Under the pieces are notes generated by a model. That model was not told the DNA's origin and ran no database searches. It saw only the letters and a program-made list of their open reading frames with translations. The position numbers were made by a program, and so were the translations under genes. Positions 18,008-35,802 of a stretch of 64,000 bases of DNA are shown here, one piece after another. Position 1 is the stretch's first letter, and each line of letters starts with the position of its first letter. Source of the DNA: Caldimonas mangrovi. GTDB lineage: Bacteria; Pseudomonadota; Gammaproteobacteria; Burkholderiales; Burkholderiaceae_C. The stretch covers positions 124,001-188,000 of the forward strand of contig NZ_JAMKFE010000005.1 in assembly GCF_023721835.1 (NCBI RefSeq), in the 5' to 3' direction.

Positions 18008-19003
18008 ATGTCGATCGGCCTGACCAAGCTAGCCTTACCCCGCGCCGGCCTCCGCCACGAGGCTCGGCGCGCACCGCTTTCCAGCGGCTGGCACGCGCGG
18101 CAGGAACCCATCATGGGCACGCCAGTGCGCGTCGAACTCTGGAGCGCCGACCGTGCGGCCGCCGAAGAAGCGATGGCGGAAGTGATGGCGGAGATGCACC
18201 GCATCGACCGGACCATGAGCCCCTACAAGGAAAGCTCGGAGCTCTCGCGCATCAACCGTGAAGCGGCCGCGCGGCCCGTGCCCGTGAGCGAAGAGATGTT
18301 CCGGCTGCTCGAGCGGGCGCAGGCCTGCTCGGAGCTCTCGGACGGGGCATTCGACATCACCTACGCGAGCGTCGGCCACCTGTATGACTACCGGCTCGGC
18401 ACCGGCCCTGACGAGGAGGCGCTGGCGCGCGGACGCGCCGCAGTCGGCTACCGCCACCTGGTGCTCGACAGCCTGCACCGCACGGTGCGTTTCGCACGCG
18501 AGGGCGTGCGCATCGACCTGGGCGGCTTCGCGAAGGGCCATGCCGTCGACAACTGCATCGCCTTGCTCAAACGCCGCGGCTTTGCCCACGCGATGGTCTG
18601 CGCGGGTGGCGACAGCCACGTGATGGGCGACCGGCGCGGCCGGCCCTGGACGATCGCGATCCGCCATCCACGCCGGGCCGGCGAGGTGGTGGCCGTGCTG
18701 CCGCTGGAAGACGTGTCGATCTCGACGTCGGGCGACTACGAGCGGTATTTCGAGCGCGACGGCGTGCGTTTCCATCACCTGATCGACCCGCGCAGCGGTC
18801 GCTCACCCAGCGAGGTGCGCAGCGTGACGATCCTCGCGCCCGACGGGCTGACCAGCGAAGGCTGGTCGAAGACGGTGTTCGTGCTCGGGGTCGAGCGGGG
18901 GCTGAGGCTGATCGAGTCGCAGCCAGGTGTCGATGCGGTGGTGGTCGACGCACAGGGAGTTATGCACTGCACGTCCGGCCTGCTGTCGCAAGAGGCGGCC
19001 TAG
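18008..19003 (+). CDS. apbE: FAD:protein FMN transferase (ApbE family)
   Basis: A 331-residue ApbE-type flavin transferase. It attaches FMN to a Ser/Thr of a target protein, using FAD and Mg2+. Family stretches: GTPVRVELW, MSPYKESSELSRINRE, DGAFDITYASVG, IDLGGFAKGHAVD, VCAGGDSHVMG and HHLIDPRSGR (metal site). The N terminus shows neither a lipobox nor a Sec signal, although many ApbE proteins act outside the cytoplasm; an in-frame stop just upstream rules out a longer start. It is first in the envelope cluster, 48 bases before a haem lipoprotein gene. No classical target (NqrB/C, RnfG, FMN_bind) is encoded nearby; the DUF4266 protein is a possible one (see findings). Confidence 0.93.
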   Translation: MSIGLTKLALPRAGLRHEARRAPLSSGWHARQEPIMGTPVRVELWSADRAAAEEAMAEVMAEMHRIDRTMSPYKESSELSRINREAAARPVPVSEEMFRLLERAQACSELSDGAFDITYASVGHLYDYRLGTGPDEEALARGRAAVGYRHLVLDSLHRTVRFAREGVRIDLGGFAKGHAVDNCIALLKRRGFAHAMVCAGGDSHVMGDRRGRPWTIAIRHPRRAGEVVAVLPLEDVSISTSGDYERYFERDGVRFHHLIDPRSGRSPSEVRSVTILAPDGLTSEGWSKTVFVLGVERGLRLIESQPGVDAVVVDAQGVMHCTSGLLSQEAA

Positions 19004-19051
19004 TACCGGTGAGTTGAGCGGGGCCCGCAGCAGGGCCACCCACAGGAGGGG

Positions 19052-22027
19052 ATGATGACAAGACGAACGAGAAACATCGGGCTCGCCGCCATGAGTGCGG
19101 CGTTGGTCGTGGGCCTGGTCGCCTGCGGCAGCGGCAGCGAAAGCGGCTCAGACACGGTCACCGTCGAAGGCGACGTGGCGATCGCCTACGTGATGCGCCC
19201 CAGTTCGGTGAACATGAATCCCACCAACGGCGCCCCCAGCGCCGCCGGTGGCGACCTGTTCGTCCGCGAGCGTTCGTCGGCGAGTGCCAGGGAACACAAC
19301 CTCACGGCGCGCTTCACGCAAGGCGAGGGCGATGCATCGGACCCCGAGGTCTCGTATGACGGCAAGAAGATCGTCTTCGCGATGCGCTGCCCGACGACCA
19401 ACACCGCGACGGTCGACGGCCAGCCGGCCTGCACCGGCCGCTGGAACATCTGGGAATACGACATGACCGCAGGCGGCCTCACGGGGGGCAGCTTCCGGCG
19501 GTTGACGCAGTCCACGCAGGACGACGACGTCGACCCGGCCTATCTGCCCGCCGGCCGCGGCTTCGTGTTTTCGTCGAACCGGCAGACCAAGTCGCGCATC
19601 AACCAGGCGTTGGGCCGCACCTACTACGCGCTTGACGAATACGAGCGCGAACGGGTGTTCAACCTGCACACGATGAAGGCCGACGGGACCGACATCCAGC
19701 AGATCACGTTCAACCAGAGCCACGACCGCAACCCGGTGGTGCGGCAGAACGGCGACATCCTGTTCTCGCGCTGGGAGCACCTGGGCGACCGCAACCGCTT
19801 CGCGATCTTCCGCACCAAGCCCGACGGCACCGACATGTTCGTGTTCTACGGTGCGCACAGCCCAGGCAACAGCTTCCTGCACCCGCGCGACATGGACCCG
19901 AACGGGCGGTATGCGGGCTACCTGGCGTCGTCGCTGATGCCGTTGTCGGGCACCGACGAGGGCGGGGCACTGATGTTCATCGACGCGGCCAACTACTCGG
20001 AACAGAACACCCCGGCCAACCGCACGGTGCCGGCGCAAGGCGGCCAGCGGCAGGTGACTGCCGATGAGCTGAGCCTCGATCGCGATCTGTCTTTGCATGG
20101 TCGCGTGACCACCCCGTACCCGCTGTGGGACGGCACCAACCGCGTTTTGGTGGCCTACCGGCCCTGCGAGGTGACGCGCGACGGCGACGTGGTGCCGTGT
20201 GCGACGCTGACCCCCGCCGAGATCGAGCGCCTGAGCGACCGCGAGCGATCGATGGAGGATGTGGCAGCCGACTCGGTGCAGGACAACGTGCCGCCGAACT
20301 ACGCGATCTACATGTTCAACCCGCAGAACCAGACCTGGCGCAACGTCGCGACACCTCCGCGCGGCTTCATGTATACCGACCCGATCCCGCTGCAGGCCCG
20401 CGCCCAGCCGCATGCGGCCGAACCGACCAACGTCGACCCGACGCTGGCAGCGCAAGGCCTGGCGCTGATCGAGGTGCGCAGCGTTTACGACACCGACGGC
20501 CTGGGCCGCATGGGCGAGATGATGATGACCGCCGCTGACCGCGTCGACGGCTGCAACCCGGTCATCGCGATGACAACGCCGACCGAGGCCAGCGACACCC
20601 GCACCCAGGTGCCGGACCTGCGGCGCATCAAGGATCCGGCCGACCCCGCCTACCACTGTGCGCCGGCGCGCTTCGTGCGGGCCACGCGGGCGATCCCGCC
20701 GCCGTCGAGCACGATGGGGCTGCGCTCGGCGATCGGCGAAACCGAGTTCGAGCAGCAGCAGATCCTGGGCTATGCGCCGATCGAACCGGACGGCTCTTTC
20801 AAGCTGCAGGTGCCGGCCGACATCCCGCTGGCGCTGGCCATCGTCGACAACCAGGGCCGAGCCTTCCAGACCCACGCGAACTGGATCCAGGTGCGCCCCG
20901 GCGAACGCCGCACCTGTGACGGCTGCCACAGCCCCCGCCGTGGTGGTGCGTTGAACTCCGGCGCCATCGTCGACACCATGCCGGCCGCGCTGCGCCCCGC
21001 CATGTCGAGCGCGCATCTGTCGGGCGAGACCATGGCTTCGACCCGCACGCGGCTCGACCCCACCGTGCTGAGGCTGCTGGCCGACATGTCGTACAGCGAC
21101 GTGTGGGCCGACACCTCGCGCACCGGCATCACGGCGCGGCCGTCGATCACGGTGCGCTACACCGGCAACGCCAACCCCGCCGACGACCTGGCGACCACGG
21201 TGCCGGTCAATGGAGTGATCAACTACCCCGAGCATGTCCAGCCGCTGTGGACACGCGACCGCGGTGCCAACACCTGCGTGAACTGCCACACCGACACCGC
21301 GCGCCTGGACCTGCGCGCCACCATCGGCGGCACCGGGCGGCTGACGTCGTACGAAGAGCTGATGATCGGTGATCCGCTGCTCGACGCGAACGGCGCACCG
21401 GTCACCCGCATCCGCGAAGGCGTGCCGATGCTCGAACGCAATGCACCGCTGGTCAACGCGAGTTCGAGCTCGACCAACACGGCGGGTATTGCTCGCAAGA
21501 GCCGGCTCGCGGAAATCCTGTGGGGCGAGACGCTGCTCGCCGGCACGGCGGCGACGCAGGCCCACCCGAACCCACCGGCGGGCGCGCCGGACCACTCGAC
21601 GCTGCTCAACGCGGCCGAGAAGCGCCTGCTCGCCGAGTGGATGGACCTGGGCGGCCAGTACTACAACGACCCGTTCAACGCTTCGAGCGGTGTGCGCACG
21701 ATCACCACGCTCAGCCTGGCGGCCTTCGAGGCGAACGTGTACCCGACGCTGCTCAACAACTGCGCCGGCTGCCACCAGGCGGGGCAGACCACAGGGACCA
21801 ACTTCCGCGGCAACCGCTACGTGCTGACGGGCGATGCCGAAGGCGACTTCAACGTCACGCTGACGATGATCAACGACACGTGCAACCCTGCCGCCAACCC
21901 GCTGCTGGCACGCCCGTCGACGGCGCCGCACCCGAGTGCAGGCACCGGCGCGGTGCTGCAGGCGGGCAGTGCCGGCTACAACGCGATCGCGGCCTGGATC
22001 GCCTCCGGAGGCTGCGGCAACCCATGA
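19052..22027 (+). CDS. Tri-haem c-type cytochrome lipoprotein, HzsA-like with TolB-type propeller
   Basis: A 991-residue exported protein. The signal peptide ends in lipobox LVAC (Cys25). Residues about 85–330 have propeller-like repeats (DPEVSYDGKKIVF, DVDPAYLPAGRGFVFSS, IFRTKPDGTDMFVFYG). A middle region (about 340–600) resembles the hydrazine synthase alpha-subunit family. Three haem c sites follow: CDGCH (622), CVNCH (742) and CAGCH (904). An AGGAGG lies two bases before the ATG at 19052 and five before the one at 19055, so the latter may be the true start. Genuine hydrazine synthesis is not implied, since this family occurs in many non-anammox bacteria. The product is probably an electron-transfer lipoprotein. 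It overlaps the next gene by four bases. Confidence 0.83.
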   Translation: MMTRRTRNIGLAAMSAALVVGLVACGSGSESGSDTVTVEGDVAIAYVMRPSSVNMNPTNGAPSAAGGDLFVRERSSASAREHNLTARFTQGEGDASDPEVSYDGKKIVFAMRCPTTNTATVDGQPACTGRWNIWEYDMTAGGLTGGSFRRLTQSTQDDDVDPAYLPAGRGFVFSSNRQTKSRINQALGRTYYALDEYERERVFNLHTMKADGTDIQQITFNQSHDRNPVVRQNGDILFSRWEHLGDRNRFAIFRTKPDGTDMFVFYGAHSPGNSFLHPRDMDPNGRYAGYLASSLMPLSGTDEGGALMFIDAANYSEQNTPANRTVPAQGGQRQVTADELSLDRDLSLHGRVTTPYPLWDGTNRVLVAYRPCEVTRDGDVVPCATLTPAEIERLSDRERSMEDVAADSVQDNVPPNYAIYMFNPQNQTWRNVATPPRGFMYTDPIPLQARAQPHAAEPTNVDPTLAAQGLALIEVRSVYDTDGLGRMGEMMMTAADRVDGCNPVIAMTTPTEASDTRTQVPDLRRIKDPADPAYHCAPARFVRATRAIPPPSSTMGLRSAIGETEFEQQQILGYAPIEPDGSFKLQVPADIPLALAIVDNQGRAFQTHANWIQVRPGERRTCDGCHSPRRGGALNSGAIVDTMPAALRPAMSSAHLSGETMASTRTRLDPTVLRLLADMSYSDVWADTSRTGITARPSITVRYTGNANPADDLATTVPVNGVINYPEHVQPLWTRDRGANTCVNCHTDTARLDLRATIGGTGRLTSYEELMIGDPLLDANGAPVTRIREGVPMLERNAPLVNASSSSTNTAGIARKSRLAEILWGETLLAGTAATQAHPNPPAGAPDHSTLLNAAEKRLLAEWMDLGGQYYNDPFNASSGVRTITTLSLAAFEANVYPTLLNNCAGCHQAGQTTGTNFRGNRYVLTGDAEGDFNVTLTMINDTCNPAANPLLARPSTAPHPSAGTGAVLQAGSAGYNAIAAWIASGGCGNP

Positions 22028-22656
22028 GCATCGTGTCCAAGCGGCGCCGCGTGTTTGCGGTCCTCGGCGCCGCCTCCTGCACCGCCTTGCTGGCACTCCC
22101 GGGCTGCGGGGGCGGGGGCTCCAACCCGCTCGACAACCCGCCGCCGGTCGGCAACCCGGGCGGCGGCACCGGCGGGAAGCTGTCGTACGTCTACTTCCAG
22201 AAGTGCATCAACCCGATCTTCCTGGCCGAGTTGCCGATCAACCAGAACGGTGAGGTGTCCATCAACACCTGCGCCGGGTCGGGTTGCCACGACAACACCA
22301 GCGGCACCGGCGGTGCGTTCCGCGTCGAGCCCGATGCGCAGGAGGTCGACCTGAGCGACCCGGCCAACACGCCCGACGTGGTGCGCCAGAGCGACATGTA
22401 CAAGAACTTCTATTCGGCACAGGGCGAGGTGCTGCCGGGCGCGCCGTTCCAGAGCCGGCTGCTCACCAAGCCGATGGTGCTCAACGTGCTGCACGGCGGC
22501 GGTCTGATCTTCGAGGACGCCGAGGACGAGCACGTCAAGCTGATCGAGTACTGGATCAACCGCCCGATGCCGGCCGATCAGGACGAATTCAGTGCGGCCG
22601 CCAACAGCATGTTCACGCCCGCCGACCCGGCGACCGGCACCTGCAATACCGAATGA
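22024..22656 (+). CDS. Small lipoprotein with atypical CX4CH haem-type motif
   Basis: A 210-residue protein with a lipoprotein signal (LALPGC, Cys28) followed by a Gly/Pro-rich linker. Around residue 83 it has CAGSGCH: Cys83 and Cys88 separated by four residues, with His89, in place of the usual CXXCH. CX4CH sites can carry haem c in some multihaem cytochromes; whether this one does is an inference. The tail mentions no further cysteine pair except near the end. The start ATG overlaps the upstream TGA (ATGA) and the stop overlaps the next gene in the same way, so the three are translationally coupled. No named family is recognised. Confidence 0.72.
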   Translation: MSIVSKRRRVFAVLGAASCTALLALPGCGGGGSNPLDNPPPVGNPGGGTGGKLSYVYFQKCINPIFLAELPINQNGEVSINTCAGSGCHDNTSGTGGAFRVEPDAQEVDLSDPANTPDVVRQSDMYKNFYSAQGEVLPGAPFQSRLLTKPMVLNVLHGGGLIFEDAEDEHVKLIEYWINRPMPADQDEFSAAANSMFTPADPATGTCNTE

Positions 22657-23441
22657 GTCGTCCGATGCCCCTTGCAGTATCCCGGCGCGGACGTTGCGCG
22701 CTTGCCCTGGCCCAGGCCGCCTTGCTGGCGGGACTGGTGGCCCTGAACCCCGCCCATGCCGACGACGAGCCGCTCGAGCGGGTGCAGGTCGCGGATCCCT
22801 ACCTCGAGATGCACACCGGTGCCGGCCGCGGCTACCCGGTGTTCCACGTCGCCGAGCGCCACGAATGGGTCGAGATCCTGCTGCGCCACACCGACTGGTT
22901 CAAGGTGCGCACGGCCGGCGGCAAGGTCGGCTGGGTGCACCGAAGCCAGCTCGAGACCACGCTGACCGCGGCCGGCGGCAACAAGACCTTCCGCGACGTG
23001 CTGCTCGACGACTACCTGCAGCGCCGCGTGCAGATGGGTGGAGCCTGGGGACGTTTCGACGGCGAGCCGATGCTCAAGCTGTGGGGCGGCTACCGCTTTT
23101 CGCCGGTGCTGGGTGTCGAGGCCACCATCGGCCAGGTGCAGGGCGTGTTCTCGGGCACCGACTTCTGGCACGTGAACATCGTCTCCGAGCCGTGGTCCGA
23201 CCGGCGGCTGTCGCCGACCTTCGGTGTCGGTGTCGGCCGCTTCAAGAATGTGCCGAACGCCAGCCTCGTCAGTGCGCGCCGCACCAACGCCAACCTGGCG
23301 AATGCCAGCCTGGGCGTGCGCTACTACCTCAGCGACCGCTTCATGCTGACGGCCGACTACTCGATCTACACCGCGTTCGTCTCCGACACCCGCTCGACCG
23401 AATACCGCGCCGTCACCGCCGGCATCTCCTTCTTCTTCTGA
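22653..23441 (+). CDS. SH3-domain / outer-membrane beta-barrel protein
   Basis: About 262 residues: signal peptide (to AHADD), a bacterial SH3 domain (about 38–95, with DPYLEMHTGAGRGYPVFHV and WFKVRTAGGKVGWVHRSQL), then an 8-strand-type barrel region with alternating residues ending in the aromatic GISFFF typical of outer-membrane insertion. The SH3 part may bind peptidoglycan or a partner in the periplasm while the barrel sits in the outer membrane. The start overlaps the previous stop; an ATG at 22665 is an alternative. This SH3 plus barrel pairing recurs in such clusters, but the function is unknown. Confidence 0.75.
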   Translation: MSRPMPLAVSRRGRCALALAQAALLAGLVALNPAHADDEPLERVQVADPYLEMHTGAGRGYPVFHVAERHEWVEILLRHTDWFKVRTAGGKVGWVHRSQLETTLTAAGGNKTFRDVLLDDYLQRRVQMGGAWGRFDGEPMLKLWGGYRFSPVLGVEATIGQVQGVFSGTDFWHVNIVSEPWSDRRLSPTFGVGVGRFKNVPNASLVSARRTNANLANASLGVRYYLSDRFMLTADYSIYTAFVSDTRSTEYRAVTAGISFFF

Positions 23442-23454
23442 CGACGTCCACCCC

Positions 23455-24102
23455 ATGCGCCTCAAGTCCTACGTCCTTTCCCTGCTGACCGCCGCCGGCG
23501 TGGCAGCCCCGCTGGCCGCCGTCGCGCAGCAGGTGCCCAAACCCGCCAACGAGCAGGTCGTCGTGCCGGAGATCGATCGCCGCGACGTCAAGCTGCCACG
23601 CATCCCGTCGAACGATTTCGTGGTGGGACTGTTCACCGGCGTCTACGCGACCGAGAGTTTCGGCTCCAGCATCGTCGGCGGCTTGCGCGTCGGCTATCAC
23701 ATCACCGAAGACTTTTTCGTCGAGGCGGCCTATGCGCGCACCAAAGTCAGCGACGAGTCGTTCCGGCAGATCCTGCCCGGTGGCGTGTTCACCAGCGAGG
23801 AAGAGACGCTGACCTACTACAACGTCTCGGTGGGCTACAACATCCTGCCCGGCGAGGTCTTCCTCGGCGCCAACCGGGCCAAGGCCTCGGCGCTGTACCT
23901 GATCGCCGGCATCGGCAGCACCAAGCTCGCCGACCAGAGCAACCAGACCATCAACTTCGGGCTCGGCACCCGTGTGTTCCTGGCCGACTGGGCGTCGGTG
24001 CAGGTGGACATGCGCGACCACATGTTCTCGTACGACCTGCTCGGCAAGCGCAAGAGCACGCACAACCTCGAGCTGACGATGGGCCTGAGCTTCTTCTTCT
24101 GA
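23455..24102 (+). CDS. Outer-membrane beta-barrel domain protein
   Basis: A 215-residue exported protein: signal peptide with cleavage near AVAQQ, a short Pro-rich linker, then a small barrel with strand pairs (FVVGLFTGVYATE, GGLRVGYHITEDFFVEAAY, YYNVSVGYNILP) and a C-terminal ELTMGLSFFF. The pattern matches the OmpA-like barrel family described mainly in myxobacteria and relatives. It ends in phenylalanine like its left neighbour, and the two barrels are probably distant paralogues. It lies 13 bases after the SH3/barrel gene. Confidence 0.75.
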   Translation: MRLKSYVLSLLTAAGVAAPLAAVAQQVPKPANEQVVVPEIDRRDVKLPRIPSNDFVVGLFTGVYATESFGSSIVGGLRVGYHITEDFFVEAAYARTKVSDESFRQILPGGVFTSEEETLTYYNVSVGYNILPGEVFLGANRAKASALYLIAGIGSTKLADQSNQTINFGLGTRVFLADWASVQVDMRDHMFSYDLLGKRKSTHNLELTMGLSFFF

Positions 24103-24121
24103 CCTCATGCAGGAGTACCGC

Positions 24122-24625
24122 ATGAAGATCCTGAAAGCGTTCTGTGTGGCGGCGGCCCTGGCGGCTGCGTTGTTCTCGTCGTTTCGCAGCGAAGCGTTGA
24201 CGCCGGCGTCGTCTGCGCCCGACTTCACGCTGCGCACGATGCAAGGCGCCAACCTGCGCCTGAAAGAGCAGCGCGGCCAGGTCGTGATGGTCAATTTCTG
24301 GGCCACCTGGTGTGGGCCGTGCCGCGAAGAGATGCCGCACCTGAACCGCCTGTACGACAAGTACCGCTCGTCGGGCTTCGTCGTGCTGGCCGTCAACATC
24401 GATGACGACGCGCGCAACGCGATGACGATGGCCTCCAAGCTCGGGCTCCGGTTCCCGGTGCTGTTCGACGCTGAAAAATCCGTCAGCAAGCTGTACGACC
24501 TGAAGGCCATGCCTTCGACCCTGCTGATCGACCGCGATGGCCGCGTGCGGTTCATGCACCGCGGGTATCTGAGCGGCTACGAAACCACCTATGACCAGCA
24601 GATCCGCGAGCTGCTGAAGGAATGA
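24122..24625 (+). CDS. Exported TlpA/ResA-type thiol-disulfide oxidoreductase
   Basis: From MKILKAFCVAAALAAAL the product is 167 residues, with an N-terminal signal or anchor helix. The thioredoxin fold has the active site WATWCGPCREEMPHL and the cis-Pro loop AMPSTLLIDRDG. Such proteins reduce periplasmic disulfides, often keeping haem-binding cysteines open for ligation. Here the neighbours carry CXXCH and CXC sites, which are reasonable clients. A possible start at 24107 is less likely, since the MQEYR prefix spoils the signal peptide. It overlaps the DUF4266 gene by four bases. Confidence 0.88.
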   Translation: MKILKAFCVAAALAAALFSSFRSEALTPASSAPDFTLRTMQGANLRLKEQRGQVVMVNFWATWCGPCREEMPHLNRLYDKYRSSGFVVLAVNIDDDARNAMTMASKLGLRFPVLFDAEKSVSKLYDLKAMPSTLLIDRDGRVRFMHRGYLSGYETTYDQQIRELLKE

Positions 24626-26041: not shown

Positions 26042-26053
26042 GGAAGCATCTAC

Positions 26054-26659: not shown

Positions 26660-26672
26660 CCGCGGACGGGAC

Positions 26673-28574
26673 ATGCACCGGAGGACTCCACTGCTACGTC
26701 TCGCGGCCACCCGGCTGGCCGTGGGAACGCTCGCGGCCCTGCTCGGCACGGCGGCGTGCGCGAAGGACCAACCGCCGCCCAAGGTGGTTCAGGCGCCTCA
26801 CTACGGTGACGGCGTGTTCTACTTTTTCCAGGACCGCTACTTCACCTCGCTGACGACGCTGATGGTGTCGCAGCACTTCGAACGCGTCACGCACCACGAA
26901 GACGAGGCGGAGATCCTGCGCGGCGGCATGCTGCTGTCGTATGGCCTGCACCGCGAGGCCGGCCGCATCTTCGAGCAACTGATCGAGCGCGGCGCCCAGC
27001 CGGCGGTGCGCGACCGCGCCTGGTACTACCTGGCGAAGATCCGCTACCAGCGCGGCTTTATCGATGACGCACAACAGGCGCTCGACCGCGTCGAGAAACA
27101 CCTGCCGCCGGAGCTGGAGGAAGACCGCGTGCTGCTCGGTGCCTACCTGAAGATGGCGCGCGCTGACCATGCCGGAGCCGCCGAGATGCTGCGCGGCGCG
27201 AGCCAGCGGCGCGAAGGCAGCGAGTACGCGCGCTACAACCTCGGCGTGGCGCTGATCAAGGGCGGCGACGCCGCCGCCGGCAGCGCCTGGCTCGATGCGC
27301 TGGGCAAGGCGCCTGCGCGCGACGAGGAAATGCGCAGCCTGCGCGACCGGGCGAACGTGGCGCTGGGTTTCGCCGCCTTGCAGGACAACCGGCCGCAGCA
27401 GGCCCGGACCTACCTGGAGCGTGTGCGCCTGAACAGCGTCCAGGCCAACAAGGCGCTGCTGGGTTTCGGCTGGGCTGCGGCAGCGATGGACGAGCCCAAG
27501 CTCGCGCTGGTGCCGTGGACGGAACTGGCGGGGCGCGATGGCAGTGACGCCGCGGTGCTGGAAGCCAGGATCGCGGTACCGTATGCCTACGCCGAGCTCG
27601 GCGCTTACGGCCAGGCGCTGCAGCGCTACCACGAGGCGATCGCGGCCTACGAGCACGAGTCGGCTGCGCTGGACGAATCGATCGCCGCGATCCGGTCGGG
27701 CAAGCTGGTCGACGGCTTGATGGAACACAATCCCGGCGAAGAGATGGGCTGGTTCTGGAGCCTGCGCGAACTGCCCGAAATGCCGCACGCCGGCCATCTG
27801 GCCCAGGTGCTCGCGCAGCACGACTTCCAGGAAGCCTTCAAGAACTACCGCGACCTGCAGTTCCTGGCCAACAACCTGCAGTCCTGGCAGGACAACCTCG
27901 GCGTGTTCCACGACATGCTCGAGCACCGCAGTCGTGCCTATGCCGAGCGGCTGCCGCAGATCCTCGCGCGTGCCCAGCAGACTGGCAACGGGCTGCAGGC
28001 GCTGCAGCAACGGCATGACGAGCTGGCGGCGGCGCTGCAGCAGGCGGAAACCACTGCCGACGGCAGGGCGCTGGCCGATGCCCGGCAGCGGGAGCTGCTG
28101 GCGCGACTGCAGCGCGTGCGGGCAACCCTTGATCGTCTCGCAACAGAGCCCGAAGCGCAGCCCGCGCGCGAGCGCTATCGCCTGGCTGCCGGGGTGCTCG
28201 ATTGGGAACTGGCCCAGGAGTTCACGCCGCGCTTGTGGGCGGCGAGGAAGGCCTTCCGCGAGATCGCTGCGCAGGTCGAACAGGCACGCGAGCGCGAGGC
28301 CGCACTGGCGCAGGCGCAGCGCGACGAGCCGCAGCGCTTCGCCGAATTTGCGGCGCGCATCCCGACGCTCGATGCGCGCATACGCGCCCTGGCGCCGCGC
28401 GTGCTGGCGCTGACCCAGGAGCAGCAACAGGTCGTCGAGGGTCTGGCCGTGGCCGAGCTGGCGCGCCAGAAGGACAGGCTCGCGGCCTACGCGACACAGG
28501 CGCGCTTCGCGGTGGCGCAGCTCTACGACCACGCCAAGCTCAAGCAGGAGGGCGATCATGCGGCCGGGAAGTAG
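26673..28574 (+). CDS. Exported TPR protein, 633 residues
   Basis: The N-terminal signal ends near GTAACAKD; the cysteine may or may not be lipidated because the lipobox is weak. Residues about 75–330 contain TPR-like helices (EILRGGMLLSYGLHREAGRIF, RAWYYLAKIRYQRGFIDDA, ARYNLGVALIKGGDAAAG, PYAYAELGAYGQALQRYHEA). The second half (about 390–620) is mostly long charged helices, probably coiled coil (LQQRHDELAAALQQAET, AAQVEQAREREAALAQAQR). It is likely a periplasmic scaffold. It overlaps the next TPR lipoprotein gene by 17 bases. Gene order and type resemble the TPR components of Agl–Glt machineries in Myxococcus; homology was not tested. Confidence 0.8.
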   Translation: MHRRTPLLRLAATRLAVGTLAALLGTAACAKDQPPPKVVQAPHYGDGVFYFFQDRYFTSLTTLMVSQHFERVTHHEDEAEILRGGMLLSYGLHREAGRIFEQLIERGAQPAVRDRAWYYLAKIRYQRGFIDDAQQALDRVEKHLPPELEEDRVLLGAYLKMARADHAGAAEMLRGASQRREGSEYARYNLGVALIKGGDAAAGSAWLDALGKAPARDEEMRSLRDRANVALGFAALQDNRPQQARTYLERVRLNSVQANKALLGFGWAAAAMDEPKLALVPWTELAGRDGSDAAVLEARIAVPYAYAELGAYGQALQRYHEAIAAYEHESAALDESIAAIRSGKLVDGLMEHNPGEEMGWFWSLRELPEMPHAGHLAQVLAQHDFQEAFKNYRDLQFLANNLQSWQDNLGVFHDMLEHRSRAYAERLPQILARAQQTGNGLQALQQRHDELAAALQQAETTADGRALADARQRELLARLQRVRATLDRLATEPEAQPARERYRLAAGVLDWELAQEFTPRLWAARKAFREIAAQVEQAREREAALAQAQRDEPQRFAEFAARIPTLDARIRALAPRVLALTQEQQQVVEGLAVAELARQKDRLAAYATQARFAVAQLYDHAKLKQEGDHAAGK

Positions 28575-31386
28575 CCTGCTGCTGGTCGCGGCGCTGACGC
28601 TCGGCGCCTGCTCGTTCGGCGGCCGCCAGAAGGGCACGCCCGACAACGCGCCGACGCTCAAGAGCCTGGCCGAGCGCCAGGTCGAGATCGGCGCCGACCC
28701 GGGCATAGAGGCGAACGAAGAGCAGACCATCGCCGCGTATCGCAAGTTCCTGGAAGTGGCACCGAATGCGCCCCAGCGCTCCGAGGCCATGCGGCGACTC
28801 GGTGACCTGGAGATGGACCTCGCCGACAGCCGGTCGGCCTCCGGCGAGGCGGCCACGCCGACAGGCGCACCCGACTATCGGGCCGCCGTTGCGCGCTACC
28901 AGGACTACCTCAAGGCCCACCCGAAGGACCCCGGCAACGACCGCGTGCTGTATCAACTGGCCCGCGCCCACGAGCAGAGCGGCGAGCTGGAGACCGCGCT
29001 GGCGGTACTGGACCGGCTGGTGGCCGACTACCCCGACACGGCCTACCGCGACGAGGCCCACTTCCGCCGCGGCGAGCTGCTGTTCACCGCGCGTGCCTAT
29101 CCGAAGGCGGAGACTGCTTATCAGGCGGTGCTGGCCGGCGACGAGCACGGGCCGTATCGTGAACGTGCGCTCTACATGCATGGCTGGTCGCTGTTCAAGC
29201 AGGGCCAGCTCGAGGAGTCGCTGCGGTCGTTCTTCGGTGTGCTCGACCTGAAGATCGCCGGGCGCGAAGGCGAGGTCGAACTGGAAAGCGTCGAAGGCCT
29301 GAGCCGCGCCGACCGCGAACTGGTCGAAGACACCTTCCGCGTGGCGAGCCTGTCGCTGCAGAACCTGCAGGGGGCCGAATCGATCCCTGTCTACATGGAC
29401 ACCGACGCGCGGCGCTCGTACGAGTTCCGCGTCTACCAGCAGCTCGGCGAGCTCTACATTCGGCAGGAGCGCATCAAGGACGCTGCCGATACGCTGGGCG
29501 CGTTCACCCGGCGGCACCCGTTGCATGCGCAGGCGCCGGTGCTGCAGGCGCGCGTGATCGACATCTACGAGCAGACCGGCTTCGCGACCCTGGCGCTCGA
29601 AGCGAAGAAGGACTACGTCGGCCACTACGGCGTCGACAGCGAGTTCCGCCGTGCCAACCCGGCCGGTTGGGAGAAGGCGCAGCCGCTGGTGAAGACGCAT
29701 CTCTCCGAGCTGGCTCGCCACTACCACGCGAGTGCCCAGAAGAGCAAGAACAGCGCCGACTACCAGGAGGCGATCCGGTGGTATCGCGTCTACCTGACGT
29801 CGTTCCCGACCGATCCCGATGCGCCGCAGAACAATTTCCTGCTGGCCGAACTGCTGTACGAAGATGCGCGCTACGACGAGGCGGCGGTCGAGTACGAAAA
29901 GGTCGCCTACGACTATCCGTCCCACGCACGCAGCGCCGATGCCGGCTACGCGGCCTTGCTCAGCTATGCCGCGCAGCAGAAGAAGCTCGGCGCAGCGGCA
30001 GGCCAGCCGCTGCAGCGCACGGCCGTCGACAGCGCGCTGCGTTTCGCCCAGGCTTTTCCGGCCGATACGCGGACCGGCGTCGTGCTGACCGATGCTTCCG
30101 AGAAGCTCTATGCACTGAACGACGGCGAGCGCGCCGCCGAAGTTGCGCAACAGGTGCTGGCACTCGACCCGCCGGCGGCCGACGCGCAGCGCCGCGTCGC
30201 CTGGACGGTGGTGGCGCACACCGCGTTCGAGCGCTCGCGCTTCGGCGTGGCCGAACAGGCGTATGCGCAGGTGCTGGCCTTGACGCCCGCCAAGGAGCCC
30301 GGACGCAAGGACCTGGTCGAACGCCAGGCCGCGGCGATCTACAAGCAGGGCGAGCAGGCCCGCGAAGCCGGCCAGGCGCGCGAGGCCGTGGCGCACTTCG
30401 AGCGCATCGCCGCGGTGGCGCCCGAATCGGCGGTGCGGGCCACGGCGCAGTACGACGCGGCTGCGTCGCTGATCGCGCTGAAGGACTGGGGCGGCGCTGC
30501 ACGTTCGCTGGAGGACTTCCGCCGGCGCTACCCCGATCACCCGCTGCAGGCGGACGTGCCGGGCAAGCTGGCGGCGGTCTATCTGGAGCAGCAGCAGTGG
30601 GCACCCGCGGCCGGCGAATTCGAGCGCATCGCCGCGAGCCACAAGGACGCGACGCTTGCGCGCGAAGCGCAATGGCAGGCGGCCGGCCTGCACGAGAAGG
30701 CGGCCGAGCAGTCCGGCTCGCGTGCCGGGGCCGTCAAAGCCTACGAGCGCTACCTGAAGCAGCATCCTCAGCCGCTGGAGCCGGCCGTCGAGGCACGCTG
30801 GCGCCTGGCGCGACTGGCCAAGGCCGACGGGCAGGGCGCGCGCGAGCTGTCGTGGATGAAAGAGGTGTTGCAGGCCGACCAGAACGGCGGGGCGGCCCGT
30901 ACGCCGCGCACGCGAGCCCTCGGTGCGATGGCGGCGCTCGCGTTGGCGCAACCGGCCTTCGACGACTACCGCAAGGTGGCGCTGGTCGAGCCGCTGGCCA
31001 AGCAGCTCAAGCTGAAGAAGGCCAGGATGGAGACGGCACTGAAGGCCTATGCGGCGGCGGCCGACTACGGCGTGGCGGAGGTGACCACCGCCGCGACCTT
31101 CCACATCGCATCGATCTACCAGGACTTCGGCCAGGCCATGCTGAAGTCGCAGCGGCCCAGGCGCTTGTCCAAGCTCGAACTGGAGCAATACAACGTGATG
31201 CTCGAGGAACAGGCCTATCCGTTCGAGGAAAAGGCGATGGAGCTGCACGAGGTCAATGCCCGCCGCGCTGCGGCCGGCATCTACGACGAATGGGTGCAGC
31301 GCAGCTTCACGGCCCTGGCGCAACTGCAACCGGTGCGCTACGGCAAGGCCGAACGCGCGGAAGGGGTGATCGATGCGATCCGCTGA
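28558..31386 (+). CDS. Large TPR lipoprotein, 942 residues
   Basis: A lipoprotein signal with lipobox LGAC (Cys19). The rest is a long solenoid of TPR-type helix pairs, for example QTIAAYRKFLEVAPNAPQRSE, AVARYQDYLKAHPKDPGNDR, EAIRWYRVYLTSFPTDPDAP and AVKAYERYLKQHPQPLEPAVE. No catalytic domain is seen. It would be lipid-anchored to the inner leaflet of the outer membrane, forming a periplasmic scaffold that could link the barrels to the ExbBD/TonB-like motor. It overlaps both neighbours (17 and 14 bases). Its length and repeat content are unusual for a TPR lipoprotein in Burkholderiales. Confidence 0.82.
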   Translation: MRPGSSLLLVAALTLGACSFGGRQKGTPDNAPTLKSLAERQVEIGADPGIEANEEQTIAAYRKFLEVAPNAPQRSEAMRRLGDLEMDLADSRSASGEAATPTGAPDYRAAVARYQDYLKAHPKDPGNDRVLYQLARAHEQSGELETALAVLDRLVADYPDTAYRDEAHFRRGELLFTARAYPKAETAYQAVLAGDEHGPYRERALYMHGWSLFKQGQLEESLRSFFGVLDLKIAGREGEVELESVEGLSRADRELVEDTFRVASLSLQNLQGAESIPVYMDTDARRSYEFRVYQQLGELYIRQERIKDAADTLGAFTRRHPLHAQAPVLQARVIDIYEQTGFATLALEAKKDYVGHYGVDSEFRRANPAGWEKAQPLVKTHLSELARHYHASAQKSKNSADYQEAIRWYRVYLTSFPTDPDAPQNNFLLAELLYEDARYDEAAVEYEKVAYDYPSHARSADAGYAALLSYAAQQKKLGAAAGQPLQRTAVDSALRFAQAFPADTRTGVVLTDASEKLYALNDGERAAEVAQQVLALDPPAADAQRRVAWTVVAHTAFERSRFGVAEQAYAQVLALTPAKEPGRKDLVERQAAAIYKQGEQAREAGQAREAVAHFERIAAVAPESAVRATAQYDAAASLIALKDWGGAARSLEDFRRRYPDHPLQADVPGKLAAVYLEQQQWAPAAGEFERIAASHKDATLAREAQWQAAGLHEKAAEQSGSRAGAVKAYERYLKQHPQPLEPAVEARWRLARLAKADGQGARELSWMKEVLQADQNGGAARTPRTRALGAMAALALAQPAFDDYRKVALVEPLAKQLKLKKARMETALKAYAAAADYGVAEVTTAATFHIASIYQDFGQAMLKSQRPRRLSKLELEQYNVMLEEQAYPFEEKAMELHEVNARRAAAGIYDEWVQRSFTALAQLQPVRYGKAERAEGVIDAIR

Positions 31387-32065
31387 TGGCGTCGGACACC
31401 GTCGACTCGTCGGCTTGCTGCTTGCGGGGGCGGCTGCCGTGTCGGGTTGCGCCTCGATGTGGACACCCGGGGTGCAGCCGGCGGCGGCGCCCGCTGCACC
31501 CGCGGCATCTTCGCCGGCTCCCGGGGCGGCCCCGTCGACCGTGCAGGCTCAGCCCGCCGCGGCAGACCCTGCGGCACAGCGCCTGTTCGACGAAGCACGC
31601 CGTGCCCTGGCCGCCGGCCGCACCGAGCAGGCCGAGCAGGGCTTCCGGGCGCTGACCCGTTCGCATCCCGACCTGGGGGGCCCGCATGCGAATCTCGGCC
31701 TGATCTACCGCCGTGCCGGCAAGCTCGACCAGGCGGTGGCCGAACTCGAAACCGCCGTGCGCCTGAGCCCGCAGCAGCCGGTGTACTTCAACCAGCTCGG
31801 CATCGCCTACCGGCACAAGGGCGCGTTCGCCAAGGCACGCGAAGCCTACGAACGGGCCATCGGGCTGAACGCCGGCTATGCCGACCCGCACCTCAACCTC
31901 GGCATCCTGCACGACCTGTACCTCGGCGAGGGCCCCCGGGCGCTGGAGCTGTACGACCGCTACCTGGCGCTGTCGGGCGGCGACGCCACCGTCGCGAAGT
32001 GGGTGGTCGAACTGAAGAACCGCAAGCCGGCGCCGGTCACCGTGAGCCGCAAGGAGAAGGAATGA
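31373..32065 (+). CDS. TPR lipoprotein, 230 residues
   Basis: The lipobox VSGC lies near residue 26, followed by an Ala/Pro linker (about 27–60) and three to four TPR units: AAGRTEQAEQGFRALTRSHP, PHANLGLIYRRAGKLDQAVAE, VYFNQLGIAYRHKGAFAKA and ADPHLNLGILHDLYLGEGPRA. Probably an outer-membrane-anchored adaptor. Third TPR gene in a row; the ATG lies inside the upstream gene and its own stop overlaps the next start (ATGA). Confidence 0.83.
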   Translation: MRSADGVGHRRLVGLLLAGAAAVSGCASMWTPGVQPAAAPAAPAASSPAPGAAPSTVQAQPAAADPAAQRLFDEARRALAAGRTEQAEQGFRALTRSHPDLGGPHANLGLIYRRAGKLDQAVAELETAVRLSPQQPVYFNQLGIAYRHKGAFAKAREAYERAIGLNAGYADPHLNLGILHDLYLGEGPRALELYDRYLALSGGDATVAKWVVELKNRKPAPVTVSRKEKE

Positions 32066-32352
32066 GACCCGCTGCCGTGCTGATGCTGCTGCCGCTGCTG
32101 GCGGCGCCCGTGTCCGCGCAGGACCGCGCCGACATCGACCGCACCCAGATCATCGGCAACCGCGAGCTGCCCAAGGTGCTCTACATCGTGCCCTGGAAAA
32201 AGCCGCTGCCCGGCGAGTTGTCCGGGCGCCCGGTCGAAAGCGTGCTCGACGAGGCGCTGGCGCCGGTCGACCGCGACGTGTTCCGCCGCAACGTGCACTA
32301 CGACGCCCAGATCCGGGCCCGCAGTGCAGCCCCGTCCCCGTCCATCAAGTAA
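32062..32352 (+). CDS. Small exported protein of unknown function, 96 residues
   Basis: A signal peptide (MRPAAVLMLLPLLAAPVSAQ) precedes a 76-residue mature part with the block RTQIIGNRELPKVLYIVPWK and PVESVLDEALAPVDRDVFRR. No known domain is recognised. The strong ribosome site AAGGAGAAGGA lies in the end of the previous gene and the ATG overlaps its stop, so it is certainly translated with the cluster. The last residues are Pro/Ser-rich. Its place between the TPR lipoproteins and the ExbB-like gene suggests a link between scaffold and motor. Confidence 0.72.
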   Translation: MRPAAVLMLLPLLAAPVSAQDRADIDRTQIIGNRELPKVLYIVPWKKPLPGELSGRPVESVLDEALAPVDRDVFRRNVHYDAQIRARSAAPSPSIK

Positions 32353-32385
32353 ACACAACACCATCGTCGTTTAGGAGAGTAGCCG

Positions 32386-33039
32386 ATGAATGTCTTCGAG
32401 TTCGCCGTCAAGTTCGTCCAGGACAGCGGCATGTTCATCTACATCAGTATCCTCATCATGGCGGTGGGCCTGGCCATCGCGATCGAGCGCTACGTGTTCC
32501 TGCAGCGTGCGCGCAGCCAGAACCGCAAACTGTGGACACAGGTGCTGCCGATGCTGCAGAACGGCAAGTTCAAGGACGTCTACAGTCTGACGTCCGACTC
32601 GGATGCGGCGATCGGCAAGATCGTCAGCAACGGGTTGTCGCGCATGCAGAGCCCCTCGCGCCGTGAGGACATCGATGCGGCCATGGAGGAGGGCATGATG
32701 GAGATCGTGCCGCGGCTGGAGAAGCGCACGCACTACATCGCCACCTTCGCCAACGTCATCACGCTGGTCGGCCTGCTGGGCACCATCGTCGGCCTGATCA
32801 AGGGCTTCACCGCGGTGGCGCAGGTCAACCCGGCCGAGAAGGCCGAGATGCTGTCGGCGTCGATCTCGATCGCGATGAACAACACCGCCTTCGCGCTGAT
32901 GGTGGCGATTCCGTTCCTGCTGATCCATGCCTTCCTGCAGGCGCGCACCAGCGAGATCGTCGACGGGCTCGAAGCGGCCAAGATCAGCTTCCTGAACGTC
33001 GTGCAGCGCATCAAGGCCGAGACCGCGCCGGCGAAGTGA
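32386..33039 (+). CDS. MotA/TolQ/ExbB proton-channel protein
   Basis: A 217-residue inner-membrane protein with three membrane helices: about 15–36 (FIYISILIMAVGLAIAIERY), about 122–145 (FANVITLVGLLGTIVGLIKG) and about 160–185 (SISIAMNNTAFALMVAIPFL). The large cytoplasmic loop between helices one and two is typical. Pentamers of this family with ExbD/TolR dimers turn proton flow into movement passed to a periplasmic partner. An AGGAGAG site precedes the ATG. It is followed by two ExbD-type genes and a TonB-like gene. Confidence 0.92.
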   Translation: MNVFEFAVKFVQDSGMFIYISILIMAVGLAIAIERYVFLQRARSQNRKLWTQVLPMLQNGKFKDVYSLTSDSDAAIGKIVSNGLSRMQSPSRREDIDAAMEEGMMEIVPRLEKRTHYIATFANVITLVGLLGTIVGLIKGFTAVAQVNPAEKAEMLSASISIAMNNTAFALMVAIPFLLIHAFLQARTSEIVDGLEAAKISFLNVVQRIKAETAPAK

Positions 33040-33044
33040 CTGCC

Positions 33045-33536
33045 ATGGCCGTTCGCCGCCTCCGCAAACACCCGGCCGCGCTGGAAGTCACCGCGTTCAT
33101 CAACCTGATCGTGGTGCTGGTGCCGTTCCTGCTGTCGACGGCCGTCTTCACACGGCTGTCGGTGCTCGAGCTCACGTTGCCCGCGCAGTCTTCGGGCGTC
33201 GAGCAGCTGAAGGTCAACGACCTGAAGCTCGAGATCGTGATCCGCCCCGACGCGCTCGAGGTGGGGGACCGCATCGGCGGGTTGATCCAGCGCATTCCCA
33301 ATGTCGAGACCGGCTACGACGTGCAAGCCTTGTCCAGCCTGATGGTGCAGATCAAGCAGCGTTTTCCCGACGCGAAGGCGGCCACCGTGCTGGCCGGCCC
33401 CGACACGCCCTATGACGCGCTGGTGCAGGTGATGGACGCAGCGCGCGCGGCCTACACGGCGCAGGGCAAGGAGCTGATCTCCACGGAGCTGTTCCCCGAC
33501 ATCTCGATCGGCGACGCACCGGTTTCGAGGAAATAG
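33045..33536 (+). CDS. ExbD/TolR-family protein (first copy)
   Basis: A 163-residue inner-membrane protein with one membrane helix (about 15–37, FINLIVVLVPFLLSTAVFT) and a periplasmic TolR-like domain. In ExbD/TolR the critical Asp lies at the start of the helix; here the matching place reads AFINLIVVLVP without an acidic residue, so this copy may not carry protons itself. The ATG at 33045 is chosen; a GTG at 33036 overlapping the previous stop is possible. Paired with a second ExbD that does carry the Asp. Confidence 0.85.
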   Translation: MAVRRLRKHPAALEVTAFINLIVVLVPFLLSTAVFTRLSVLELTLPAQSSGVEQLKVNDLKLEIVIRPDALEVGDRIGGLIQRIPNVETGYDVQALSSLMVQIKQRFPDAKAATVLAGPDTPYDALVQVMDAARAAYTAQGKELISTELFPDISIGDAPVSRK

Positions 33537-33544
33537 GTGCCGCG

Positions 33545-34045
33545 ATGAAACTGACACCGCTGCAAAAGCGCGCCGAACGGCGCGATCGCAACCAGTCGCA
33601 CGTCGACATGAACCTGGTCGCGCTGATCGACATCTTCACGATCCTGATCTTCTTCCTGCTGTCCAGCGCCACCGGCGTCGAGATCCTGGCGAGCCCGAAG
33701 GCGGTGAAACTGCCGCAGTCGACCGCCGAGACGGCGCCGCGCGAGACCATCGTCGTCGTGGTCAGTGCCGACGAGATCCTGGTCGACGGCCGGCGCGTCG
33801 CGGGCGTGTCCGAGGTCATGGGCACCGAAGGCGACCTGATCGCGCCGCTGAAGGCCGAGCTGGACGTGCTGCGCAGCAGCCGCAAGGTGATCCGCGAGGA
33901 GAACGAGGCGTTGAGCAAGGCCGTCACGATCATGGGCGACAAGCAGATTCCCTACCGCCTGCTGCGCAAGGTGATGTACACGGCCGCACGCGCCGACTTC
34001 ACCGACGTGTCGTTCGCGGTGATCAAGAAGTACGAGGCATCATGA
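33545..34045 (+). CDS. ExbD/TolR-family protein (second copy)
   Basis: A 166-residue protein with one membrane helix (about 24–44). The sequence VDMNLVALIDIFTILIFFLL carries the conserved aspartates of the family (Asp22 before the helix, Asp30 in it), which take part in proton passage. The periplasmic part (about 45–166) contains REENEALSKAVTIMGDKQIP and the usual YRLLRKVMYTAARADFTDVS. This copy is therefore the likely working proton-carrying subunit. It overlaps the TonB-like gene by four bases. Confidence 0.9.
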   Translation: MKLTPLQKRAERRDRNQSHVDMNLVALIDIFTILIFFLLSSATGVEILASPKAVKLPQSTAETAPRETIVVVVSADEILVDGRRVAGVSEVMGTEGDLIAPLKAELDVLRSSRKVIREENEALSKAVTIMGDKQIPYRLLRKVMYTAARADFTDVSFAVIKKYEAS

Positions 34046-35139
34046 GCGCCGCCACCAGCGTGTCCTTCCGCGTCTCGGTGCTGCCTTGGGCCATCTCGCC
34101 CGAGGACCAGGCGCGCTTTCGCCGCATCCTGCAAAGCGTGCTCGGCATCAGTGCCATCCTGTGCCTGCTGTTCCTGTTGTGGCCGCGGCCGGTGGAAGAC
34201 CGCACGCAGCCGCAGGACCTGCCGCCGCGCATCGCGAAGATGGTGCTCGAGCGCGAGCTGGCTCCCCCGCCGCCTCCGCCGCCGCTCGCCAAGCGCGACG
34301 CGGCACCCGAGGTGGCCGCGCCGACCACCGCGCCGCGTGACCGCAAGCCCGAGCCGAACAAGCCCGCCACCGTGAAGAACCCGGTGGTCGAGGCCCGCAA
34401 CCCGCAGGCCGGCAAGCCGCCGGGTGAGGTCGGCGAGGCGCGTCGTCGCGCGGCCGGGGTCGGCCTGCTGGCGATGAAGAACGATCTGGCTGAACTGCGC
34501 GGTGCACCGGTGGCGGTGCAGCTGAAGCAGGACATCACGCCGGGCAAGGGCGTGGGGACAGGCGTCGGAGTCGGAGTCGGTGCCGGCACCGACCCGGGCG
34601 TTCCGACGCGCGCGCTGATCACTTCCAACGCGGCCGGCGGCAGTGGCGGCATCAACACTGCGGCCTACAGCCGCAACACCGGCGGCGGCGGCCTCGCGGG
34701 CCGCGCGACGACCCTGGTGGAAGGCGTGGCAGGTGGCGGCGGCGGCGGTGGTCCGGGCGTCGGCGGCGTTCGAGGCGACGGCACCGGTACGGGCACGGGC
34801 ACAGGCCGTGGCGCCGGAGGCTCCGTCCAGCGCAGCGGCAGCGGCAAGGCCTCGCGCTCGATCGAGGAGATCAAGCTGGTCTTCGAGCGCCACAAGGGCG
34901 CCATCTACGCGATCTACAACCGCGCGCTGCGCGAAGACCCAAGCCTGCAGGGCAAGGTGGTGCTGCAGCTGACGATCTCGCCGGCCGGCGAGGTGGTGAA
35001 CTGTCGCGTCGTCTCGAGCGAACTGAACGCCGCCGAACTCGAAAGCAAGCTGCTCGCACGCGTGCGGCAGTTCGACTTCGGCGCGAAGGACGTCGAGCAG
35101 ATGGTGGTCACCTGGCCGGTTGATTTCCTGCCGTCGTGA
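34042..35139 (+). CDS. TonB-like energy transducer with AgmX/PglI-type C-terminal domain
   Basis: A 365-residue protein: a short cytoplasmic start, one membrane helix (about 31–50, LGISAILCLLFLLWP), a Pro-rich segment (PPPPPPPLAKR), long Gly-rich low-complexity linkers (about 170–265) and a C-terminal domain from SRSIEEIKLVFERHKGAIYAIYNRAL to VTWPVDFLPS. That domain matches AgmX/PglI C-terminal regions, TonB-type contact domains. It should receive energy from the ExbBD motor and reach across the periplasm. Its stop overlaps the ccmA start by one base (TGATG). Confidence 0.85.
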   Translation: MSAATSVSFRVSVLPWAISPEDQARFRRILQSVLGISAILCLLFLLWPRPVEDRTQPQDLPPRIAKMVLERELAPPPPPPPLAKRDAAPEVAAPTTAPRDRKPEPNKPATVKNPVVEARNPQAGKPPGEVGEARRRAAGVGLLAMKNDLAELRGAPVAVQLKQDITPGKGVGTGVGVGVGAGTDPGVPTRALITSNAAGGSGGINTAAYSRNTGGGGLAGRATTLVEGVAGGGGGGGPGVGGVRGDGTGTGTGTGRGAGGSVQRSGSGKASRSIEEIKLVFERHKGAIYAIYNRALREDPSLQGKVVLQLTISPAGEVVNCRVVSSELNAAELESKLLARVRQFDFGAKDVEQMVVTWPVDFLPS

Positions 35140-35780: not shown

Positions 35781-35802
35781 TGCGTAGTGTTAACAGGCCC
35801 TA
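35752..35802. repeat. REP-like palindrome at the ccmA/ccmB junction
   Basis: Two 16-base arms, TAGGGCCCGTTAACAC and GTGTTAACAGGCCCTA, pair at 15 of 16 positions around a 19-base loop that contains the ccmA stop. No T run follows, so it is not a normal terminator. It resembles repeated extragenic palindromes; no second copy was found in this window. Confidence 0.75.

Follow-up and report, generated by a model that had tools for sequence, protein, structure and literature searches.

What would a proton-driven envelope motor of the Agl-Glt kind be doing in one row with genes for haem-motif lipoproteins and flavin-type redox proteins? The question is raised by a locus of Caldimonas mangrovi (contig NZ_JAMKFE010000005.1), analysed here within a window of 64,000 nucleotides (124,001 to 188,000 of the contig) in which all positions are counted; the host genome measures 5.5 Mb and is spread over 53 contigs. 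Between 18008 and 35139 the plus strand carries 17 open, closely packed genes whose GC content at third codon positions is 0.80-0.94. They form a redox half of eight genes (ApbE, an HzsA-like lipoprotein, a CX4CH lipoprotein, two outer-membrane barrels, TlpA, DUF4266 and DUF3570) and a motor half of nine (a protein here called CC, the TPR proteins TPR1, TPR2 and TPR3, a small exported protein, ExbB, ExbD1, ExbD2 and AgmX). An initial annotation, made from the letters of the DNA, had counted 16 genes, although its own list adds up to 17, and had set them at most 48 bases apart. The latter holds for the other junctions (overlaps of 4-17 bases, gaps of 4-48 bases) but not between DUF4266 and DUF3570, where the gap is 115 bases from the ATG at 24980 and 31-115 bases if plausible upstream starts are considered. 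Its family names were borne out by Pfam and NCBIfam profile matches (ApbE 1e-81, HZS_alpha 1e-19, DUF4266 8e-22, DUF3570 4e-37, MotA_ExbB 1e-25, ExbD 4e-13 and 3e-15, TIGR04565 barrel 1e-47, AgmX/PglI C-terminal domain 1e-18). For the gene it called TonB/AgmX-like, the likeness to AgmX stands, and AgmX/GltG-like is the better label because a myxo_SS_tail domain is present.

The resemblance to the Agl-Glt machinery that had been proposed for the motor half also held up. A "core complex" in which gltC, D, E and G are clustered with aglR, Q and S has been described in Gammaproteobacteria, one betaproteobacterium, Geobacter and Fibrobacter (PMC3169522; papers are cited throughout from excerpts of their text). 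It holds one extra gene, absent from Myxococcales and Bdellovibrionales, and the function of the complex was called unknown in 2011 (PMC3169522). The nine motor genes of the window match this composition, and AgmX passes the AgmX/PglI tail model.

The 17 genes are a widely conserved unit, inherited as one. With the CC protein (26054-26659) as bait, 8 of 60 sampled genomes of relatives gave a match: the host itself, six strong ones and one weak one. All 17 genes stand in unchanged order in 5 of the 59 other genomes; the sixth strong relative (G025) has only ApbE through part of TPR1, and the examined stretch of the weak one (G024) contains no part of the cluster. A scan of named genomes turned up 370 relatives, of which the best 80, that is the close ones, were retained, and gene order was counted at those 47 named Burkholderiales loci whose flanks each measured 10 kb or more, the order being taken from the stop codons. 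Every one of the 47 has CC, TPR1 and all eight redox genes, and 46 have TPR2, the small exported protein, ExbB, both ExbD and AgmX. The search for the same gene order that the initial annotation had called for thus found, TPR3 aside, the order and strand of the window's 16 other genes preserved at 46 of the 47; genes scattered in relatives and co-occurring by chance were not seen. TPR3 was detected at 33 of these loci, which may be an undercount, as a reading frame was assigned to no more than one family, the one scoring best, and at one locus (L149) a TPR3-type match lies upstream instead. The sole exception to the order (L133) appears to be the same locus as that of G025.

Coupling between motor and redox genes is well supported by comparative sequence evidence. 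The class was surveyed in 369 genomes, of which 82 have CC and 90 have DUF4266, the host included; without the host, 63 genomes have both (Fisher p 2e-33, odds ratio 35, to be taken as a guide only since the genomes are related). CC matches were divided at 165 bits into a close type and others, a line placed by eye, once the scores were known, at the gap where they drop from 169 to 153. On this division, DUF4266 lies within 40 kb on the same contig at 40 of 53 close-type loci, 27 of them within 5 kb, and at 1 of the 51 other CC loci; the other 13 close-type loci are in genomes with DUF4266 elsewhere (11) or without it (2). Seen from the reverse side, only 41 of 122 DUF4266 loci have a CC gene within 40 kb, so the redox module also exists without CC. 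Gene content was read at 80 of the 104 CC loci outside the host genome: two or more redox families stand beside 41 of 50 close-type loci versus 2 of 30 other CC loci (L220 and L222), and 27 of these 30 carry the motor. The nine genes from CC to AgmX are complete at 15 of the 20 class loci fetched first, whether redox genes are present or not. At eight other-type loci (L065-L072), the CC side, judged by eye from sequence, holds mostly housekeeping genes and no recurring cargo. A sample of 299 genomes of the phylum returned 10 CC matches, the host included, all in the same class. At one further locus (L064, in G344), CC stands beside ApbE, and the stretch fetched there lacks a motor and adds just a TPR3-like gene; it is apparently a remnant or another variant.

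CC follows the redox label more closely than ExbB does, although this is a lean and not proof. With one set of 62 rows (37 redox, 25 alone) used for both trees, the label changes 3 times in the CC tree (bootstrap 2-3) and 6 times in the ExbB tree (4-7), against about 20 times with shuffled labels; the ExbB bootstrap is unsettled, and well-supported branches force one change only in either tree. A first ExbB tree of 68 rows, labelled from the local stretch only, had 9 changes. The redox label was later given to nine close-type loci with redox genes or DUF4266 elsewhere, the module type being seen in four only, and L071 and L072 were left out of the 62 rows for their long CC branches. In an 89-row CC tree, the low-scoring loci that have redox genes (L220 and L222) group among the close type.

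A stronger sign is that the motor is not always found beside its presumed cargo. Among the 45 close-type loci with a flank of at least 8 kb (five with shorter flanks were dropped), 17 have no ExbB, ExbD or AgmX on the motor side. AgmX is nonetheless present over its family cut-off elsewhere in 17 of these 17 genomes, compared with an extra AgmX in 2 clear cases and at most 4 of the 28 genomes with a local motor (G196 and G226; fragments in G107 and G152), a difference with Fisher p 5e-9 when the larger count is taken; the 17 genomes belong to seven families and represent fewer independent events. An ExbD gene adjoins AgmX at 14 of the 14 distant places over cut-off, and a second CC copy occurs in 12 of the 17 genomes versus 3 of the 28 (p 6e-5). 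In the host genome, the AgmX of the window is the only match to its family model. Since AgmX lies elsewhere in each of these 17 genomes, motor and cargo look as if they were separable, by analogy with the AglRQS motor, which serves both Glt and Nfs in Myxococcus (PMC3858216).

The two ExbD proteins differ at the proton-carrying membrane position. Among rows above 60 bits, all 119 of ExbD2 carry Asp there and 119 of the 120 of ExbD1 carry Asn, a pattern alike in redox-linked and stand-alone loci. Such an unequal pair suggests that ExbD1 and ExbD2 may form an obligate heterodimer. Its presence throughout the compared loci bears on an uncertainty stated for Myxococcus, where AglQ and AglS both have the membrane aspartate and whether they form heterodimers is left uncertain (PMC9389320).

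The redox half recalls a module of ApbE, DUF3570, a thioredoxin-like protein and DUF4266 described among DsbD-type flavinylation systems, with 316 such clusters lacking DsbD (PMC8238504). DUF3570 of the window is without the acceptor motif [S/T]GA[S/T]. As a comparison set we used 20 DUF4266 loci unlinked to CC, of which 4 are modules of the cluster type that sit on another contig and the remaining 16 are the plain operon; DUF3570 of the plain operon has the tetrad in 16 of 16, with the upstream Asp too in 15. In contrast, of 110 cluster-type DUF3570 proteins just 7 have the full motif and 12 a tetrad of this form at all; in the cluster type, the position of the motif glycine is mostly Asn (69) or Ser (23), while the rest of the first heptad and the Asp of the second are preserved in 103 (variant heptad Dxx[ST]xA[ST]). 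ApbE has changed as well: by a crude measure of N-terminal hydropathy of our own making, none of the 55 measurable Burkholderiales rows reaches 1.8 (6 reach 1.5) versus 22 of 23 gammaproteobacterial cluster-type ApbEs. In Burkholderiales, Lys replaces a conserved Thr and Glu replaces an Asp, each in 59 of 59 rows, whereas the Thr is retained in 23 of 24 gammaproteobacterial ApbEs. The Asp change alone is not diagnostic, since 14 unlinked ApbEs carry Gly in that column, and the Ser and His called conserved in PMC12052999 are retained by the Burkholderiales ApbE.

Because the motif glycine is gone, the ApbE metal site is altered and no ApbE signal peptide is evident, the Burkholderiales lineage studied here has probably lost or changed the flavin step that it inherited from a DUF3570/ApbE ancestor; the gammaproteobacterial versions may have it intact. 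On these grounds we rejected electron transfer through covalent flavin mononucleotide, for the Burkholderiales lineage only. Since the variant heptad is itself conserved, flavinylation at the changed motif is possible, and in another protein a glycine-to-alanine change left about half of the flavinylation (PMC12052999). The initial picture of a motor joined to haem and flavin chemistry is therefore kept as a conserved trans-envelope unit with a proton motor and, at motif level, haem, and given up for flavin transfer in this lineage; handling of metal, which had also been proposed, is neither supported nor excluded.

The haem part is supported by the CXXCH and CX4CH motifs of two lipoproteins, which would be putative haem binders. 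Among 93 long rows of the HzsA-like protein, 2 have one CXXCH, 59 have two and 32 have three; the window protein also has a weak PD40-like stretch scoring under the PD40 cut-off. The two barrel genes (22653..23441 and 23455..24102) are paralogous by hhalign (97.7%), with only 22.7 bits in a BLASTP of the window proteins. The model of DUF3570 (mean predicted local distance difference test score, pLDDT, 76) has 16 long strands and matches porin-like barrels in general, and the heptads fall in the loop that joins strands 3 and 4, which is modelled with low confidence and would face outward by strand parity if both ends are periplasmic. The CC model (mean pLDDT 83) combines a long helix with a beta-sandwich and matches only generic Ig/transthyretin-like folds; we regard CC as a candidate for the cargo adaptor, and it may also correspond to the extra gene in the core complex of 2011. 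A PDB search with AgmX gave no match. DUF4266 homologues share a near-invariant GGGCGCN end, often with an RGATG stretch just upstream of it.

Several gammaproteobacterial versions add a DUF1585-like CXXCH protein, a LamG (concanavalin-like) CXXCH lipoprotein and a Tat-type exported protein. The last, of about 530 residues, lies between the redox operon and the motor (L053, L054, L058, L061 and L063) and shows strong conservation at GGYDYHTG and, after it, a conserved GRCIGACLEYA-like stretch; it matched no Pfam family and no NCBIfam model over cut-off, and one search of the host genome, run without a positive control, found no copy.

Altogether, we consider it somewhat better than an even bet (roughly 55%) that the products of the locus form a trans-envelope machine of the Agl-Glt/Nfs class, driven by protons and with an outer-membrane redox complex as its cargo. 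This is based on the order of the 17 genes, the linkage of the CC type to the redox genes, the presence of the motor elsewhere in 17 of 17 genomes, the AgmX tail match, the ExbD pair and the sharing of one motor by Glt and Nfs. In such a machine, the ExbB/ExbD motor would pull or turn AgmX, which, via the TPR proteins and the CC adaptor, would move or gate an outer-membrane complex of barrels and haem lipoproteins whose thiols TlpA and DUF4266 would hold in the right state. The motor would be interchangeable between the redox cargo and the stand-alone core complex, as AglRQS is between Glt and Nfs, and haem would be left as the conserved cofactor after the probable loss or alteration of the flavin step. 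The coupling comes from comparison of genomes, whereas the action of the machine on its cargo is our inference. A bolder version is tentative, and we would sooner bet against it than for it: the locus would represent a third cargo class of Agl motors, after gliding (Glt) and spore-coat assembly (Nfs), in which the proton-motive force mechanically drives or repositions outer-membrane haem complexes through a CC adaptor, with a motor interchangeable with its stand-alone paralogue and an obligate ExbD heterodimer with a single proton-carrying aspartate.

A number of observations speak against a machine of this class. Its likeness to Agl-Glt is one of described composition and family models; the match of TPR3 to GltE is generic for TPR proteins and below cut-off; the CXXCH number of the HzsA-like proteins varies from 1 to 3; and the literature searched held no experiment on any such gene cluster. 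The fetched stretch has no redox family at 9 of the 50 close-type loci, of which four have the redox module on another contig and five only a DUF4266 match elsewhere in the genome. The redox group is not one clean clade, as L064 and L230 fall inside it, and p-values overstate independence when related genomes are compared. G025, a Burkholderiales metagenome-assembled genome consisting of a single contig, keeps CC, part of TPR1 and the redox genes with no motor at the locus, and no AgmX match was found anywhere in that genome; the motor may therefore be dispensable.

The alternative that survives best, though we think it unlikely, is a TonB/Tol-like energised gate for uptake or export, in which the motor would open DUF3570 and the barrel pair for a metal, haem or an organic substrate, and the haem lipoproteins would reduce or oxidise that substrate at the surface. 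The ExbB/ExbD/TonB_C make-up and the AgmX C-terminus suit energising of the TonB type, DUF3570 is a predicted 16-strand barrel, and other flavinylation clusters, some with DUF3570, have links to iron (PMC8238504). However, among the Pfam families of TonB-dependent receptors and plugs DUF3570 has no match, and none of the 17 genes matches a Pfam family for metal, siderophore or haem transport. Three TPR proteins and CC are also more than a TonB system needs, which counts against the gate.

Still less probable is the processing of a surface polymer, where the machine would move an extracellular polysaccharide that the redox proteins modify oxidatively, in the way that Agl-Glt is tied to slime and Agl-Nfs to the spore coat. 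Known relatives do move polymers, and gammaproteobacterial versions have the LamG CXXCH lipoprotein, the DUF1585-like CXXCH protein and the Tat-type protein beside the redox genes, but these three genes are absent from the window cluster (the host search for the Tat-type protein, with the limit given above, was likewise empty) and no Pfam family for glycan synthesis was matched among the 17. Least credible is that two independent operons, an envelope-stability motor and a redox module, are adjacent by drift or shared regulation with no physical coupling: some genomes do have the modules on separate contigs, others have them facing opposite ways with about 12 kb between them, and G025 has the redox genes without the motor, yet the CC type predicts the presence of the redox module across many families and the order is fixed at all but one of the named loci.

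A machine of the Agl-Glt/Nfs class with a redox cargo would matter in three ways. One core-complex type travels with one defined outer-membrane redox gene set, which makes the function of the core testable in non-pathogenic Burkholderiales; the locus offers a testable guess at what an Agl-type orphan motor does outside gliding bacteria; and it suggests how one motor comes to serve several cargoes.

Features of the redox-motor locus, in positions of the 64,000-nucleotide window
Feature	Position	Strand	Basis
ApbE-like, without evident signal peptide	18008..19003	+	PF02424 1.1e-81; hydropathy, site columns; PDB homologues
ApbE Glu284 (Asp in gammaproteobacterial counterparts)	18857-18859		
ApbE Lys288 (Thr in gammaproteobacterial counterparts)	18869-18871		
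HzsA-like lipoprotein, CXXCH at residues 622, 742 and 904	19052..22027	+	PF18582 9.6e-20; lipobox; PDB 5c2v_A 8.8e-12
Lipoprotein with CX4CH haem-type motif (CAGSGCH)	22024..22656	+	no Pfam family; CX4CH in 74/74 homologues
SH3 domain and outer-membrane beta-barrel	22653..23441	+	PF08239, PF13505; paralogue of the OMP_myx_plus gene downstream
Outer-membrane beta-barrel (OMP_myx_plus)	23455..24102	+	TIGR04565 1.1e-47
TlpA/ResA-like thiol-disulfide protein, WCGPC	24107..24625	+	PF08534, PF00578; NF002854 under cut-off
DUF4266 small lipoprotein, C-terminal CGCN	24622..24864	+	PF14086 7.9e-22; C-terminal CXC in 74/74 homologues
DUF3570, predicted 16-strand outer-membrane barrel	24980..26041	+	PF12094 3.8e-37; model, fold search; start uncertain (24896-24980)
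DUF3570 former flavinylation heptad positions, DAVSNAS and DVVTTAS	25160-25204		motif counts
CC protein, exported helix and Ig/transthyretin-like beta-sandwich	26054..26659	+	no Pfam family; model; trees
TPR1, exported TPR/coiled-coil protein, GltC-sized	26673..28574	+	PF14559; place in conserved core
TPR2, large TPR lipoprotein, GltD-sized	28558..31386	+	PF13174, PF13432; lipobox
TPR3, TPR lipoprotein, GltE-like	31373..32065	+	best NCBIfam match GltE 1.7e-14, under cut-off, TPR-generic
Small exported protein, IxGNxELPKVLYIVPWK motif, GltF-sized	32062..32352	+	no family; recurs in core loci
ExbB/AglR-like motor subunit	32386..33039	+	PF01618 1.1e-25
ExbD1, Asn23 (33102-33104) replaces membrane aspartate	33036..33536	+	PF02472
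ExbD2, membrane Asp29 (33629-33631) retained	33545..34045	+	PF02472
AgmX/GltG-like energy transducer, TonB-type C-terminal domain	34042..35139	+	NF033768 1.1e-18; NF033760 GltG 9.6e-10, under cut-off

The motif of the small exported protein is strongly conserved in the core loci compared. The 3' end of AgmX runs into a cytochrome c maturation operon (35136-41783, with CcmA at 35136 and the CcmB, CcmC, CcmF and CcmH/CycH families); a functional link to this operon was considered and rejected, as it is a local neighbour only, found at 4 of 52 Burkholderiales loci. A hybrid histidine kinase with dCache, GAF and PAS domains and a receiver domain (13262-16300), encoded upstream on the plus strand, may be a regulator.

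How does this locus compare with known systems? The initial annotation knew of no named system with this set, which, as far as the literature searched goes, holds for the set as a whole and not for its halves, both of which are in print (PMC3169522, PMC8238504). Among open-licence PMC papers, no report was found that ties a Glt-type core to DUF3570, DUF4266 or HzsA-like proteins, and DUF3570 and DUF4266 are named together only in PMC8238504. With the alpha subunit of hydrazine synthase, HzsA, the window protein shares similarity in the middle domain, including one CXXCH, but only about 73 residues align well and the equivalog model is not reached (65.9 vs 800 bits). With TonB-ExbB-ExbD and Tol-Pal, the locus shares an ExbB/ExbD motor, a TonB-type C-terminal domain and, in TPR2, YbgF/BamD-like TPR repeats; it differs in its two unlike ExbD proteins, the AgmX-type tail, CC and the redox cargo. 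ExbB and both ExbD score under the TolQ, ExbB, TolR and ExbD equivalog cut-offs, and AgmX passes the TonB C-terminal model TIGR01352 (32.3 vs 27.1) and misses PF03544 (22.3 vs 24.6). The flavinylation module of PMC8238504 has the same four kinds of protein together, whereas here DUF3570 is without [S/T]GA[S/T], the Burkholderiales ApbE is altered, with no signal peptide evident, and the set is enlarged by a motor, the paralogous barrels and the lipoproteins with haem motifs.

The Agl-Glt/Nfs systems differ in that the excerpts of the Glt and Nfs papers (PMC3169522, PMC3858216) are silent on haem-motif lipoproteins, TlpA, DUF4266 and DUF3570, to which the core is linked here. The window ExbD1 lacks the membrane Asp that AglQ and AglS both have (PMC9389320), a trait stated for these Myxococcus proteins and not as defining the gammaproteobacterial core. 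AgmX does not reach the GltG equivalog (37.6 vs 650 bits), and the barrel pair recalls GltA/GltB (PMC4488436) by description only. What is shared is the core itself: ExbB with two ExbD, an AgmX/GltG-type transducer and three TPR proteins in one cluster with an extra gene (PMC3169522), and an AgmX/PglI-type C-terminal domain for which the window AgmX scores 67.2 bits against a cut-off of 40 (NF033768).

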